Origin: Dehalococcoidia bacterium
GTDB lineage: Bacteria > Chloroflexota > Dehalococcoidia > Tepidiformales > Tepidiformaceae
Assembly: GCA_020432045.1 (NCBI GenBank)
Contig: JAGQHB010000030.1
Location: forward strand, 1 to 64,000
Length of the DNA stretch: 64,000 nt
Direction: 5' to 3'
A program made the translations under genes and the position numbers. The notes under the pieces are model-generated. The model did no database searches, had not been told where the DNA came from, and worked only from the letters and a program-made list of their open reading frames with translations. Shown here one piece after another: positions 7,851-33,087 of the stretch (its first letter is position 1; the number at the start of each line of letters is the position of its first letter).

Positions 7851-7985
7851 TCGGCCGGACTCCTGGGTTAGTGCTCACGTGGTGGCGCTGGCCAACGTAC
7901 GCGGGTGCTGTTGACAGCATTGTGTCAGGAGGAGTGAGGCAATGGGAGGGAGTGGTGACAGCGTCGTGTCAGGAGGGTTTGGGCC

Positions 7986-8300
7986 GGCGCCCCTCACCCT
8001 GCCCTCTCCCCCTGGCGGGGGCGAGGGTTCTGGGAGATACCCACGCTCCCTTCGCTCCGGGTCCGGGTAGAGGGGTTGGGGATGTGGGGTGTGGCGGGAC
8101 GATGGTCTCGCGCGCGGCGCCCCTCACCCTGCCCTCTCCCCCTGCCGAGGGCGAGGGTTCTGGGAGATGCCCACGCTCCCTTCGCCTCGGACACGGGAGA
8201 AGATTTTTGGGGACGATGGGTGTGGCGGGACGATGGTCTCGCGCGGCGCCCCTCACCCTGCCCTCTCCCCCTGCCGGGGGCGAGGGTTCTTGCGTTGGTG
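7986..8300. repeat. three tandem copies of a two-hairpin intergenic repeat
   Basis: The 515-base gap 7851-8365 holds a repeat array with a period of 129-130 bases: units begin at 7986, 8116 and 8245 with GGCGCCCCTCACCCTG. Each full element runs from CCCCTCA and contains two GC hairpins: CTCTCCCCCTGCCGGGGG followed by CGAGGG, and CTCCCTTCG with GGACACGGGAGAAG. Elements lie at about 7990-8089, 8120-8220 and 8249-8291 (the third is cut after its first hairpin). Related copies lie at 25994-26218 in inverted orientation. No open frame here looks real, and no CRISPR-like spacing is present. Confidence 0.85.
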
Positions 8301-24769: not shown

Positions 24770-25300
24770 ATGGCGATGTACATGCGATTTCGCCGGGCGA
24801 TCCGGTTGTCACTGGCGGCGGTGTTGTTGGCGGTGGTGCTGGCCCCGGGCGCAGGCCTGCGGATTCACCCCGCGGCCGCGCTATTCGACGAGCTTCGCAT
24901 CGAGATCCGGCCCGAGGGGTTTAACCCGGCCGTGTGCCAGGTGAACCGCAACACCTACGCCAATATCCGGTTTGTGAACAGAGATTCGAAGCCACGCCGC
25001 ATCGTGGTCGACGAAATCGCGGAGCCCGGGGCGTTCCGGCTCGACACGGGCTGGATCGCCCCCGGCGAAACGCAGACGACAAGCTGGACCTTCACGGAAC
25101 TGCAGGACCTGAGGTACCGCGATCACGACAACCCGGCACTGACGGGGCGGATCATCGTGCCGATCCCGAACAACGCGGAACAGATCTGTGAGGCAGCGGT
25201 CTTACCGGACCCGGCCGGTGACCCGTGCGTCCGGGCGTTCGCAGAACCGGCCGGTTGCCGCGTGATCCCGCGAGTAACGAGCGACGGTCCGTTGCAGTAG
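24770..25300 (+). CDS. secreted cupredoxin-fold protein lacking copper ligands, copy 1
   Basis: Of several nearby in-frame starts I pick ATG 24770, which has GGTAGG upstream; 24701, 24776 and 24782 are alternatives. A signal segment (SLAAVLLAVVLAPGAGL) is followed by a cupredoxin-like domain: EIRPEGFNPAVCQVNRNTYA, NIRFVNRDSKPRRIVVDE, TGWIAPGETQTTSWTF, YRDHDNPALTGRIIVPI. In copper-binding relatives the segment reads PHxV and CxxHxxMxG; here His is Arg and the C/H/M positions are not conserved (DHDNPALTG), so type-1 copper cannot be held. The C-terminus has two Cys and ends VTSDGPLQ. It is a tandem paralogue of the next gene. Confidence 0.75.
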   Translation: MAMYMRFRRAIRLSLAAVLLAVVLAPGAGLRIHPAAALFDELRIEIRPEGFNPAVCQVNRNTYANIRFVNRDSKPRRIVVDEIAEPGAFRLDTGWIAPGETQTTSWTFTELQDLRYRDHDNPALTGRIIVPIPNNAEQICEAAVLPDPAGDPCVRAFAEPAGCRVIPRVTSDGPLQ

Positions 25301-25398
25301 CCGGACACAGCGGCAGGTTTACGCACTCGACCGTTCTTATGACGCGCCGTACGGTGGGCGTTCGCTCCGTGGTGGGGTGGAGCGAGGTTGGCCGGAAA

Positions 25399-25980
25399 AT
25401 GAACCAGAAACTGACACGCGCTCTAAGCGTGGTTGCGGCCGTCTCGATGCTGACGGCCGGCATTGCCGTGGTCGTCCTCAGCGAGAGCAGCACGCCAGCA
25501 CAGGCGGCGGGCACGTACTACATCGACATTCTCCCCGGTGGCTTTAACCCGCCAAACTGCACTGTGAACCGGAACGACAGCACGGTGAAGTTCGTGAACA
25601 AGGACAGCAAACCGCGGCGAGTTGTGGCCGGGGACCAGGTTGAGGAGACCGGCGAATACCCGCTCGATACGGGCCTAATCCTTCCTGGCGAAACGCAATC
25701 GGGCGGCTGGTTCTTCTCGGCACTCGACCAGAAGACCTATAAGGATTTCGACAACCCGGCGTTGACTGGCGTCATCATCGTGCCCAGAGACGAGAATGCG
25801 CAGTCCGTCTGCTCGCCCTTGCCGCCGACCCCAACACCGACCAATACGCCGACCGTGACGCCGACACCGACCGCAACGCCGCCGCCGCCGCCAACCCCAG
25901 AGGCGTGCGCACGGCTGCTGAACGCGCCGAAGGGCTGCAACCTGGCGCCGGCGGTCGCGAGCGACGGGCCGCAGCAGTAG
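25399..25980 (+). CDS. secreted cupredoxin-fold protein lacking copper ligands, copy 2
   Basis: ATG 25399 begins a signal peptide (ALSVVAAVSMLTAGIAVVVL) ending near AQAAGTYY; the frame upstream of it is not needed. The domain repeats that of copy 1: GGFNPPNCTVNRNDSTVKFV, NKDSKPRRVV, LILPGETQSGGWFFS, YKDFDNPALTGVIIVP. Copper ligands are again missing. This copy has an added Thr/Pro-rich stretch (about residues 143-168) before a shared C-terminal tail with two Cys that ends VASDGPQQ. The retained tail in both copies suggests a common exported function, possibly partner binding. A repeat cluster follows 13 bases after the stop. Confidence 0.75.
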   Translation: MNQKLTRALSVVAAVSMLTAGIAVVVLSESSTPAQAAGTYYIDILPGGFNPPNCTVNRNDSTVKFVNKDSKPRRVVAGDQVEETGEYPLDTGLILPGETQSGGWFFSALDQKTYKDFDNPALTGVIIVPRDENAQSVCSPLPPTPTPTNTPTVTPTPTATPPPPPTPEACARLLNAPKGCNLAPAVASDGPQQ

Positions 25981-25993
25981 GGGGCGGGAGGCA

Positions 25994-26218
25994 CCCCTCA
26001 TCCCCGGCCCTTCTCCCCGTGTCCGGGGAGAAGGGAGAACAGACGCGATCATGCGGGGCCCTCGCCCCCGGCAGGGAGAGAGGGCAGGGTGAGGGGCGCT
26101 ACCCGCCGAAATCCTTTGTGCTGCCGCGCCCCTCATCCCCAGCCCTTCTCCCCGTGTCCGGGGAGAAGGGAGAACCGACGCGATCATGCGGGACCCTCGC
26201 CCCCGGCAGGGTGAGGGG
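25994..26218. repeat. two copies of the two-hairpin intergenic repeat
   Basis: Copies at 25994-26096 and 26129-26218 begin CCCCTCATCCCC and end TGAGGGG, so the ends are inverted repeats. Each has a CCCTTCTCCCCGTGTCCGGG-type hairpin and a CCCTCGCCCCCGGCAGGG arm. They are the reverse complement of the elements at 7986-8300. They are nearly identical to each other, differing mainly by a short deletion in the second. They lie between the cupredoxin-fold pair and the HicB/HicA-like module. Confidence 0.82.
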
Positions 26219-26222
26219 GCTG

Positions 26223-26278
26223 CTACTCGTCCACGCGAACGCGGCGGGCTTCGGCTACGAAGCGGTAGCCAGCGTTGC
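26223..26278 (-). pseudogene. duplicated 3' end of the response regulator gene
   Basis: These 56 bases match 26784-26839, the last 56 bases of the response regulator gene, at 47 of 56 positions and in the same orientation. They would encode AGYRFVAEARRVRVDE plus stop, against VGYRLVAEARRESVDE in the intact gene. No further upstream part of the gene is present. The toxin-antitoxin pair lies exactly between the two copies. Confidence 0.8.
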
Positions 26279-26298
26279 CCCCTGACGGGGCGGCTATC

Positions 26299-26535
26299 AT
26301 GGATCCTAGCTTGCAGGGGGTGATTGGGCTGGAAGAGATTATTTTCGTTGTGACTGAAACGCCCGAAGGCGGGCTGACGGCGCGCGCGCTTGGGCAATCG
26401 ATCTTTACGGAGGCCGATGATCTCGATGTATTGCGCGAGCGTGTCCGGGATGCGGTCCAGTGCCACTTCGACGAGGGCACCGGGCCCCGTCTTATTCGGT
26501 TGCACTTCGTCCACGACGAGGTGATGGCTGTATGA
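26299..26535 (+). CDS. HicB-like antitoxin (short type)
   Basis: The product (78 residues from ATG 26299; a later GTG is also possible) contains EEIIFVVTETPEGGLTARAL and then FTEADDLDVLRERVRDAVQC, the single-domain HicB-like fold of small antitoxins that pair with HicA-type toxins. No added DNA-binding domain is seen, so autoregulation would need the complex. Its stop overlaps the start of the toxin gene (ATGA), the usual coupling in such pairs. The order is antitoxin first, which is less common for hicAB but seen in this short-type group. The pair is bordered by duplicated response-regulator sequence. Confidence 0.75.
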   Translation: MDPSLQGVIGLEEIIFVVTETPEGGLTARALGQSIFTEADDLDVLRERVRDAVQCHFDEGTGPRLIRLHFVHDEVMAV

Positions 26536-26777
26536 CCCGTCTCCCCCGTGACTGGACGGGGGAGCAGCTGGCGAGGGCCCTCGGCCGGCTGGGGTACGAG
26601 GTCACTCGCCAGTCGGGAAGCCACATGCGGCTGACCACTGATATGCCTGGACGCCACGACATCACGGTTCCGCGGCACGATCCGCTCCGCGTCGGGACGT
26701 TAGGAGCCATCCTCGCCGATGTCGCTAATCACTTCGGGCTCGCCCGGGACGAGCTTCTCGACCGGCTCCTTTGGTAG
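26532..26777 (+). CDS. HicA-type toxin
   Basis: ATG 26532 overlaps the antitoxin stop. The 81-residue protein is a HicA/YcfA double-stranded RNA-binding-fold toxin: LARALGRLGYEVTRQSGSHM has the G-S-H active-site histidine, followed by MRLT, then HDITVPRHDPLRVGTLGAIL. HicA toxins cleave mRNA and tmRNA when freed from HicB. The stop codon lies 6 bases from the convergent response regulator stop. All conserved positions are present, so the toxin is probably functional. Confidence 0.82.
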   Translation: MTRLPRDWTGEQLARALGRLGYEVTRQSGSHMRLTTDMPGRHDITVPRHDPLRVGTLGAILADVANHFGLARDELLDRLLW

Positions 26778-26783
26778 CGCTAG

Positions 26784-27467
26784 CTATTCGTCCACGCTTT
26801 CGCGGCGGGCTTCGGCGACGAGCCGGTAGCCGACGTTGCGTACGGTTTCGATGAAGGCGTGACCGTGGACTTCGATCTTGGCTCGGATGCGGCGGATGTG
26901 GACGTCGACGGTGCGAGCCCCGCCGAAGTAGTCGTATCCCCAGACGCGGTTGAGGAGCTGTTCGCGCGTGAAGACACGGCCAGCGTTCATCGCGAGGAAG
27001 CGGAGCAGCTCGTACTCCTTGAAGGTGAGCACAAGGGGCACCTCATCGACGACGACGCGGTAGTTGGCGAGGTCCAGGACAAGGGCGCCGCAGCGGACGA
27101 AGCTTTCGCTATCGATGCCGTGCTTACGCCAGAGGATACGGTCGATGCGGCGGGCGAGCTCCTGTGAGCTGCCGGGGAGAGCCATGAAGTCGTCGACGGC
27201 GAGGTCGGCGGCGATACGCTGCAGCTGATCGGGAGGAACGGCAGCAACCAGCGTGGCACCGCCTTCGGCGAGCGTCGCTACGAGCAGGCCGACGGCCGAA
27301 CCAGGCACGTCACGCAAGTCGAGCACGGCGACCTCCGCCTCTGCTTCAACGTCACCGGACGCGAGGTCGGATGGGGCGGAGACACTCGCCCTGAAGCCTT
27401 CCCGTTCGAGCGCAGGGCCGAACCGGGCAAGATCTTCGTGGCGTGTGACGAGCAACACGGTTCGCAT
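26784..27467 (-). CDS. OmpR/PhoB-type response regulator with degenerate receiver
   Basis: ATG 27467 starts a receiver-like domain (about 1-115) and a winged helix (about 130-225: LTFKEYELLRFLAMNAGRVF, TREQLLNRVWGYDYFGGART, VDVHIRRIRAKIE). The phosphoacceptor Asp is kept (VAVLDLRD), but the Mg-binding acidic pair near the N-terminus is replaced (LLVTRHED) and the conserved Lys is lost (FMALPGSS where TKP is usual). It may therefore work without phosphorylation. No histidine kinase is nearby. The gene's 3' end is duplicated at 26223-26278 across the HicB/HicA pair. Confidence 0.85.
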   Translation of the reverse strand: MRTVLLVTRHEDLARFGPALEREGFRASVSAPSDLASGDVEAEAEVAVLDLRDVPGSAVGLLVATLAEGGATLVAAVPPDQLQRIAADLAVDDFMALPGSSQELARRIDRILWRKHGIDSESFVRCGALVLDLANYRVVVDEVPLVLTFKEYELLRFLAMNAGRVFTREQLLNRVWGYDYFGGARTVDVHIRRIRAKIEVHGHAFIETVRNVGYRLVAEARRESVDE

Positions 27468-27591
27468 GGCCTGAAACGACACCTGCCGTCCGGGCATTAT
27501 AGGCGGGTGTGTCGCCTACCTTACGCCTGCGCGATGAAATCCATGTGAAATGTTTCACGAACGCTCAGGGACGCGACCGACCGAATCCGGG

Positions 27592-31571: not shown

Positions 31572-31940
31572 CTAAAGGCCTGCTGCCCGCGTCTCGATCT
31601 CCAGGGCGACCGGCAGGGCGGTGTCGCGCCAGCTGGCGAGGTCGCCGGAGTAGCCGGGACTGTACTTCTCAAAGAGCAGCCGGCGCGCGAGCGCGTCCTC
31701 TTCCGACCCCGCTGCGACCAGCCGGGCCGTCGCCGCGTAGGTGACACCATCGAGACGGACGGTGGCAGCGGGCGTCTTCTGGATGTTTCGAACCCAGTGG
31801 GCCTTTTCGCGACCACCGGCCATGAGGAAGAGCGTGTTCTCCGAGAGCGCAAACCAGATTTCGATCTCGCGCGGCTCGCCGGATGTGCGCCCGGTCGTGG
31901 TGAGGTAGCAGTAGGGGAGGGTGGGATCGAGATCAGGCAA
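31572..31940 (-). CDS. deazaflavin (F420)-dependent nitroreductase/quinone reductase-like protein, 5' end rebuilt
   Basis: The 122-residue product resembles the Ddn/DUF385 split-barrel family: LTTTGRTSGEPREIEIWFAL, FLMAGGREKAHWVRNIQKTP, and VALEIETRA at the end. Relatives use reduced F420 to reduce quinones or nitro compounds. The start is TTG 31940, with GAGGAG upstream inside the RES toxin gene. Codons 5-16 (DPTLPYCYLTTT) lie in a 38-bp sequence (31891-31928) that is repeated exactly at 33047-33084, where it follows a better ATG. The first codons here are therefore new, and the gene is now translated from the toxin-antitoxin operon. Confidence 0.8.
   Translation of the reverse strand: MPDLDPTLPYCYLTTTGRTSGEPREIEIWFALSENTLFLMAGGREKAHWVRNIQKTPAATVRLDGVTYAATARLVAAGSEEDALARRLLFEKYSPGYSGDLASWRDTALPVALEIETRAAGL
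31891..31928. repeat. 38-bp direct repeat, copy A (inside reductase 5' end)
   Basis: The sequence starting CCGGTCGTGGTGAGGTAGCA and ending GGTGGGATC is identical over 38 bases to 33047-33084 in the same orientation. Identity stops sharply on both sides. The RES/Xre module lies between the copies. Confidence 0.95.
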
Positions 31941-31942
31941 AT

Positions 31943-32485
31943 TCAGAACTCCTCGGGCAGCAACATACTGGAGAGTTCATTTGTCTCAATAACTTCAAGC
32001 TCCATGAGGGAAATCCGGTCGTCGAAGACAGCGATCACGTCACCGGTACCGGTGGCCGAAGGTGCAATGATGCCCTGGTAGCCGAGGAAGTGTGCGGCCT
32101 GGGCAATTTCCTGGCAGAGGCTCCTGCCTTCCATTGTGAGTTCTTCGTAGGTGAGACCGAGACTCGCCACCGTGGTTGGGTTCGTTAGATCGAGCACCTG
32201 TATGGGCTGAACGCGGACCGTGTGCAGATCGCGAGGGAGAAACGACGCTGCACCACGTGCCTGCCCCTCGGCCATGCGCCGGAACTCCTCAACAGCGGCT
32301 TCGACCGGGACGGCGAGGTAGACGGCCCCGAACAGATCCCGGGGATTCCACCGGCCACCGAATGCCTTCGCCCCGGCCGCTGAAAGGGGCGGCACCGTCC
32401 GAGCCGTATGGCGGTAGGCGACGCCGCTCCAGAACGCAGGATCGAGTGAATCGATGGAACCGATGAGGTCAGGCGGCGCCGCCAC
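31943..32485 (-). CDS. RES domain toxin
   Basis: The 180-residue product has the RES fold of NAD+-degrading or ADP-ribosylating toxins: VAYRHTARTVPPL, FGGRWNPRDLFGAVYLA (R-W-N-P with the active Arg and Tyr), VEAAVEEFRRMAEGQ with Glu, and QGIIAPSATGTGD near the C-terminus where the family's Ser/Asn sits. It begins with GTG two bases after the antitoxin stop, the common antitoxin-toxin arrangement. Key residues look intact. The stop is 2 bases before the rebuilt reductase start. Confidence 0.85.
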   Translation of the reverse strand: MAAPPDLIGSIDSLDPAFWSGVAYRHTARTVPPLSAAGAKAFGGRWNPRDLFGAVYLAVPVEAAVEEFRRMAEGQARGAASFLPRDLHTVRVQPIQVLDLTNPTTVASLGLTYEELTMEGRSLCQEIAQAAHFLGYQGIIAPSATGTGDVIAVFDDRISLMELEVIETNELSSMLLPEEF

Positions 32486-32487
32486 CG

Positions 32488-32826
32488 TCAGAGGACCACG
32501 CCTTCGGCGAGCGCTTCAATTAGAGCGAGCACATCGCGGAACTGGCCTTTGCCGATCCGCTCGGCGGGCGTGTCGTACTCCAGCAGTCGATTCGGCGTGA
32601 AAATCCAGAGATTCGCGTCTTCCGGTTTCAGGACGTTCTTCAGCCGCTCTCCGACAGCAAAGAGTTCCAAGAGGCGTTGCCGTGCGAGCCGCTGGGGCGA
32701 AGCTTCGCCAGCCGCCCACCGTGCGACAGTTCGTGCCGACGTCCCGACCAACGCGGCGAGCTCCTCCTGCGAAAGCGAAAGATCACTGCTGAGCCGCCGC
32801 ACCTGGGTTGCCAGTGCCCCGGTCAT
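32488..32826 (-). CDS. Xre/MbcA/ParS-type antitoxin
   Basis: ATG 32826 (MTGALATQVRRLSSDLSLSQ) is favoured; ATG 32898 is a possible longer start. An Xre helix-turn-helix (EELAALVGTSARTVARWAAG) is followed by a toxin-binding C-terminal domain (ELFAVGERLKNVLKPEDANL, then RIGKGQFRDVLALIEALAEG), as in antitoxins of RES toxins. The protein should bind the toxin and its own promoter. An inverted repeat of TGTCACA lies about 100 bases upstream. Confidence 0.83.
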   Translation of the reverse strand: MTGALATQVRRLSSDLSLSQEELAALVGTSARTVARWAAGEASPQRLARQRLLELFAVGERLKNVLKPEDANLWIFTPNRLLEYDTPAERIGKGQFRDVLALIEALAEGVVL

Positions 32827-32921
32827 AACGTTGCTCCGCGGGAGGCGGACTGCACACATTCCAGGTGCGCCTCCAACGCTGCCTTGTGGTCGTTCCATCC
32901 GACTCTTGGCTCCAGCCCCAT

Positions 32922-33015: not shown

Positions 33016-33087
33016 CTACGGAGGAACTGTCTGCCACGGGCCTCGTCCGGTCGTGGTGAGGTAGCAGTAGGGGAGGGTGGGATCCAT
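33016..33087 (-). pseudogene. 5' stump of the interrupted deazaflavin reductase gene
   Basis: ATG 33087 lies 4 bases after the mandelate racemase-family stop, with GAGG before it, and encodes MDPTLPYCYLTTTGR, matching residues 5-18 of the downstream reductase, then GPWQTVPP and a stop. This is what the start of the original gene would look like before the toxin-antitoxin module entered after codon 15. It is too short to be a functional gene. Confidence 0.75.
33047..33084. repeat. 38-bp direct repeat, copy B (original reductase 5' end)
   Basis: This is identical over 38 bases to 31891-31928. It lies 7 bases from the end of the mandelate racemase-family gene and preserves the original ATG context of the reductase gene. 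Confidence 0.95.

Follow-up and report, generated by a model that had tools for sequence, protein, structure and literature searches.

The organization of the toxin-antitoxin (TA) loci described here suggests that TA pairs need no transposase to spread: the two genes may travel alone, in an insertion that duplicates the end of a neighbouring gene. About ten TA loci bear this same scar, which points to the pair alone as the unit and to the end of the neighbouring gene as the likely entry point. The observations bear on the movement of chromosomal TA pairs that are carried by no transposon or phage.

In the window, by which we mean the whole stretch of DNA analyzed (64 kb of a MAG assembly), a repeat search revealed a direct repeat of 57 nt, 26222–26278 versus 26783–26839, with 48 of 57 positions identical (84%) in the same orientation. 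The repeat corresponds to the 3' end of an OmpR-type regulator gene on the minus strand (26784–27497; Trans_reg_C, E = 5e-27; orthologues ~70% identical), including its stop codon plus one base. Both copies read on the minus strand, and the 504-bp insert between them (26279–26782, plus strand) contains exactly one HicB-like/HicA pair and almost nothing else. A sequence-only reading had described 47 identities over 56 bases, in the same orientation and with the stop codon included, and had placed the TA genes exactly between the copies; both statements were confirmed, its repeat being the same match minus one base. The runner-up ungapped 57-nt match to the repeat on the plus strand of the window reached 33 identities. 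Across the 3.48-Mb genome, the outer copy (26222–26278) matched itself and the regulator end alone (E = 1.7e-11), the next match having an E value of 0.1. The suggestion that the similarity might be general to OmpR-type genes is therefore ruled out, as only two copies were found genome-wide despite 16 matches to the regulator protein. The outer copy is adjoined by two units of a hairpin repeat (25991–26220). These units, noticed earlier as abutting it, are real, but they occur well beyond this locus, belonging to a dispersed family that numbers dozens of copies genome-wide. The family is also found at 7985–8290 of the window.

The predicted toxin gene hicA (26532–26777, plus strand) was identified by its match to PF07927 (HicA_toxin; E = 2e-11, 44 bits, cut-off 27). 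It is preceded by a putative, hicB-like antitoxin gene (26299–26535, plus strand; the start is perhaps a few codons later, at about 26320), which overlaps hicA by the sequence ATGA. This upstream reading frame had no match in Pfam or NCBIfam, and its assignment draws on its conserved position before hicA in relatives, where it is 59–72% identical to the frame preceding hicA in eight other loci. Its predicted fold, strand-strand-strand-helix-strand, resembles that of HicB, and the model gave weak, non-significant matches to PDB entries, among them HicB-like and antitoxin entries. The pair resembles HicBA type II TA systems in having a HicA domain and an overlapping small partner gene, whereas its putative HicB partner is short and unrecognised by Pfam or NCBIfam.

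The C-terminal residues of the regulator distinguish the two copies. The orthologues compared (L003–L030, minus the truncated L020) end in RNVGYRL, and this ending is retained in the inner copy (26783–26839), the functional 3' end of the regulator gene. The outer copy reads NAGYRF and keeps its stop codon; both of its changes, V>A and L>F, fall at positions that are invariant among the orthologues read. Judged by these residues, the outer copy is a derived, non-functional remnant. The residues EARR..VDE are common to both copies and absent from the orthologues read, indicating that both copies descend from the same recent gene lineage. A comparison of 8–16 kb around the regulator in 14 genomes of the family revealed no common neighbours and no empty site.

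We surveyed HicA loci across Dehalococcoidia, counting a locus as flanked when it was spanned by direct repeats of at least 40 bp. Such repeats span 16 of the 48 HicA loci, versus none of 125 control loci (Fisher, 1.5e-10), the controls being genes (orthologues of the regulator, a quinone reductase and a hydratase, and other OmpR genes) and not matched intergenic loci. For comparison, ~1% of positions in long stretches are spanned by such repeats. A duplicated neighbour-gene end, or a whole duplicated gene, was found at nine of the 48 loci, or about a fifth (Fisher, 5e-6, again with genes as controls). At the other seven flanked loci, the repeats look dispersed or non-coding. Apparently non-coding repeats of 48–151 bp bracket HicA at L155, L163, and L171. 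Several of the flanked HicA matches are distant (~35% identity). The repeats flanking HicBA in genome G016 were considered as a second case and rejected, because they belong to a dispersed family with 49 matches.

The genes duplicated in this way are diverse. They include a poly(A) polymerase/CCA-type gene (L168; Pfam; copies 98% identical), a purQ-like gene (L170), an acyl-CoA dehydrogenase gene (L173; Pfam; copies 99% identical), and pheS (L177; Pfam), with further targets at L208, L212, and L223; a membrane protein gene is among the targets of the survey. At L175 and L176, which may represent one event, HicA lies between two complete acyl-CoA dehydrogenase copies that are 84–87% identical. 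The inserts measure 465–594 bp, approximately one TA pair, in all flanked gene-end or whole-gene loci except L175. The repeats range from 41 to over 1400 bp, or from 41 to 352 bp outside L175/L176. Acyl-CoA dehydrogenase genes are repeatedly the neighbours (L173, L175, L176, and the insert L344 described below).

Two other origins of the paired gene ends can be weighed against these loci. The regulator might have been duplicated in tandem and the duplicate mostly deleted, leaving its last 57 bp, with the TA pair entering the gap independently. The complete dehydrogenase copies at L175/L176 and the tail that both regulator ends share to the exclusion of the orthologues would fit such a history; however, two events would be needed each time, and the borders of the insert would have to match those of a TA pair at many unrelated loci, making this account quite improbable. 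A chimeric assembly of two strain variants of the locus is conceivable, as the source is a MAG and a misjoin could place divergent alleles side by side. The joints in the window are nevertheless free of N runs, and the arrangement recurs in many assemblies and is concentrated at TA pairs. One of these assemblies is a single-contig genome (G029, carrying L168), which argues against an assembly explanation. We regard a chimera as very improbable.

A second case was detected in the window by a local-repeat scan. A RES/Xre TA pair on the minus strand (31943–32898), comprising a RES toxin gene (31943–32485) and an Xre/MbcA/ParS antitoxin gene (32488–32898), is bracketed by a 41-bp repeat with 40 of 41 positions identical. 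Here the duplication concerns the 5' end of the following gene, not a 3' end. The inner copy (31888–31928, minus strand) is the 5' coding end of an F420H2-dependent quinone reductase-like gene (31572–31940) and is read from a TTG immediately after the RES stop codon. The outer copy (33044–33084, minus strand) has its own ATG directly upstream.

The same kind of scar surrounds three non-TA inserts in ~1.8 Mb of the 3.48-Mb genome. At L282 (12511–14221), the 5' end of an enoyl-CoA hydratase gene, 108 bp with its ribosome-binding site, is duplicated around two genes, one YmgE-like and the other a truncated PRC-barrel gene, both named from their sequence; some residues in the outer copy of this 5' end are also found in an orthologue. 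At L344 (10904–11856), 114 bp of the 3' end of an acyl-CoA dehydrogenase gene are duplicated around a TylF-like methyltransferase gene, and past the outer copy there is a small VapB-like gene. At L353 (5428–6789), the 3' end of a small SnoaL-like gene, which had no Pfam match, is duplicated around a universal stress protein gene (169 bp, 96% identity). These three inserts extend the process beyond TA pairs and rule out TA specificity for this genome. Neither the quinone reductase nor the hydratase orthologues showed synteny among their neighbours. Several other local repeats in the genome sample were set aside as intra-protein repeats, hairpin repeats, or paralogues (e.g., L302). In the window, two adjoining cupredoxin-like genes (24898–25784) look like a diverged tandem duplication.

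The divergence between the copies bears on how the second gene end arose. The compared repeats aligned without gaps, and in the TA cases 53 of 78 coding differences were synonymous and 25 were not, against an expectation of 44% synonymous under a model in which insertion produced two identical copies and later drift was open to the outer one alone (P = 2e-5). This excess is carried by loci other than the HicBA repeat of the window, which has four synonymous differences and five that are not and is by itself neutral between a donor origin and decay; the three non-TA cases alone gave no significant excess (P = 0.16). Their sequences suggest that most of the divergence built up at a time when each copy belonged to a functional gene. 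The bias to synonymous changes and the absence of gaps make it probable that the insert came with a gene end of its own that had already diverged. An integrase and a fixed target site were probably not involved.

This pattern has to be set against an exact duplication of the target, in which staggered breakage or template switching over tens of bases would have produced identical copies, the outer one then decaying, while insertions away from gene ends would have been lost as gene-breaking. Near-identical copies in some cases (40/41 at RES/Xre, 98% at L168, and 99% at L173) agree with such an origin, as do the altered invariant residues of the outer copy in the window and the repeat at L168, which extends into the intergenic region, 38 bp beyond the stop codon. 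Conversely, the differences in the TA set are too synonymous for the unconstrained decay of one copy and include no gaps, and some repeats are as long as 352 bp, or exceed 1200 bp. We consider an exact duplication possible but rather unlikely.

We favour, with modest confidence, an import of the TA pair together with its own gene end, through recombination anchored in the shared gene on one side and an illegitimate joint on the other. The incoming DNA, taken up by transformation, would carry the TA pair joined to the donor's version of the gene end. One side would be joined by one-sided homologous recombination in the shared gene and the other by an illegitimate joint, in the window ~57 bp inside the resident gene. 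The regulator would thereby keep a complete end, and the resident end would persist as a fragment on the far side of the TA pair. At the outer joint, we saw no extended homology. A family search detected ComEC and DprA families in the genome and no match to Ku, which weakly suits uptake and recombination over end joining. The enrichment at HicA might be attributable to selection against loss of the TA pair. The model makes a testable prediction, namely that the attached end is the donor's. More tentatively, and with less than even confidence, bare HicBA pairs may act as units of mobility throughout the class, without any mobile element, through recombination anchored in the end of a neighbouring gene, which would leave behind a diverged duplicate of that end. 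Perhaps replacement of the pair kills the cell, so that all survivors are cells with duplications.

Some integrative elements replace the 3' end of a gene, so that the gene end is restored and the displaced end is kept at the far border. The locus resembles these elements in both respects, and the earlier idea of an element that enters a gene's 3' end with a replacement end held in part: a TA pair is inserted at the 3' end of a protein gene, a second copy of that end is present, the arrangement recurs at unrelated genes, and the mainly synonymous divergence, taken across all cases, agrees with an insert that carried a gene end of its own. The likeness to elements that target tRNA genes did not hold, as the inserts are only ~0.5 kb, the target genes differ, the repeat length varies, and no common junction motif was apparent by eye. 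We found no transposase or integrase gene in the inserts, the HicBA insert of the window holding hicBA only and the others mostly being about one TA pair long. A site-specific integration, in which a small element uses an attachment site within the gene end and its integrase is supplied in trans or has since been lost, would account for the replaced 3' end typical of such elements. Given these differences, and inserts with neither an integrase nor room for one, it is extremely improbable.

The import of a TA pair with a donor gene end has a close mechanistic parallel in homology-facilitated illegitimate recombination, known from laboratory transformation of Acinetobacter, S. pneumoniae, and P. 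stutzeri (PMC3784515), and proposed for T6SS immunity arrays (PMC5361080). Common to both would be a homologous anchor combined with an illegitimate joint, foreign genes trapped beside a shared gene, and an orphaned old gene end. In contrast, that process was described in laboratory transformation and not for TA pairs, and the duplication as its outcome is our inference. One paper mentions direct repeats on either side of a mycoplasma TA pair as a recombination scar (PMC8562856), and in the open papers searched we found no earlier report of TA pairs with the scar described here. Two H. pylori genomes gave rise to the description of insertion with long target duplication, a process frequently linked to restriction-modification genes (Nobusato et al. 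2000, Gene 259:99; PMC1643837); according to a review, the duplicated target measures on the order of 100 bp (PMC3874152). The likeness lies in an addictive gene unit, no known mobile element, and long, variable direct repeats of the target. The difference lies in restriction-modification genes of H. pylori there and, here, TA pairs of Dehalococcoidia at the ends of protein genes, with copies that resemble diverged alleles. The TA-pair insertion scar extends the pattern known for restriction-modification genes, an extension predicted by the kinship of both as addictive units.
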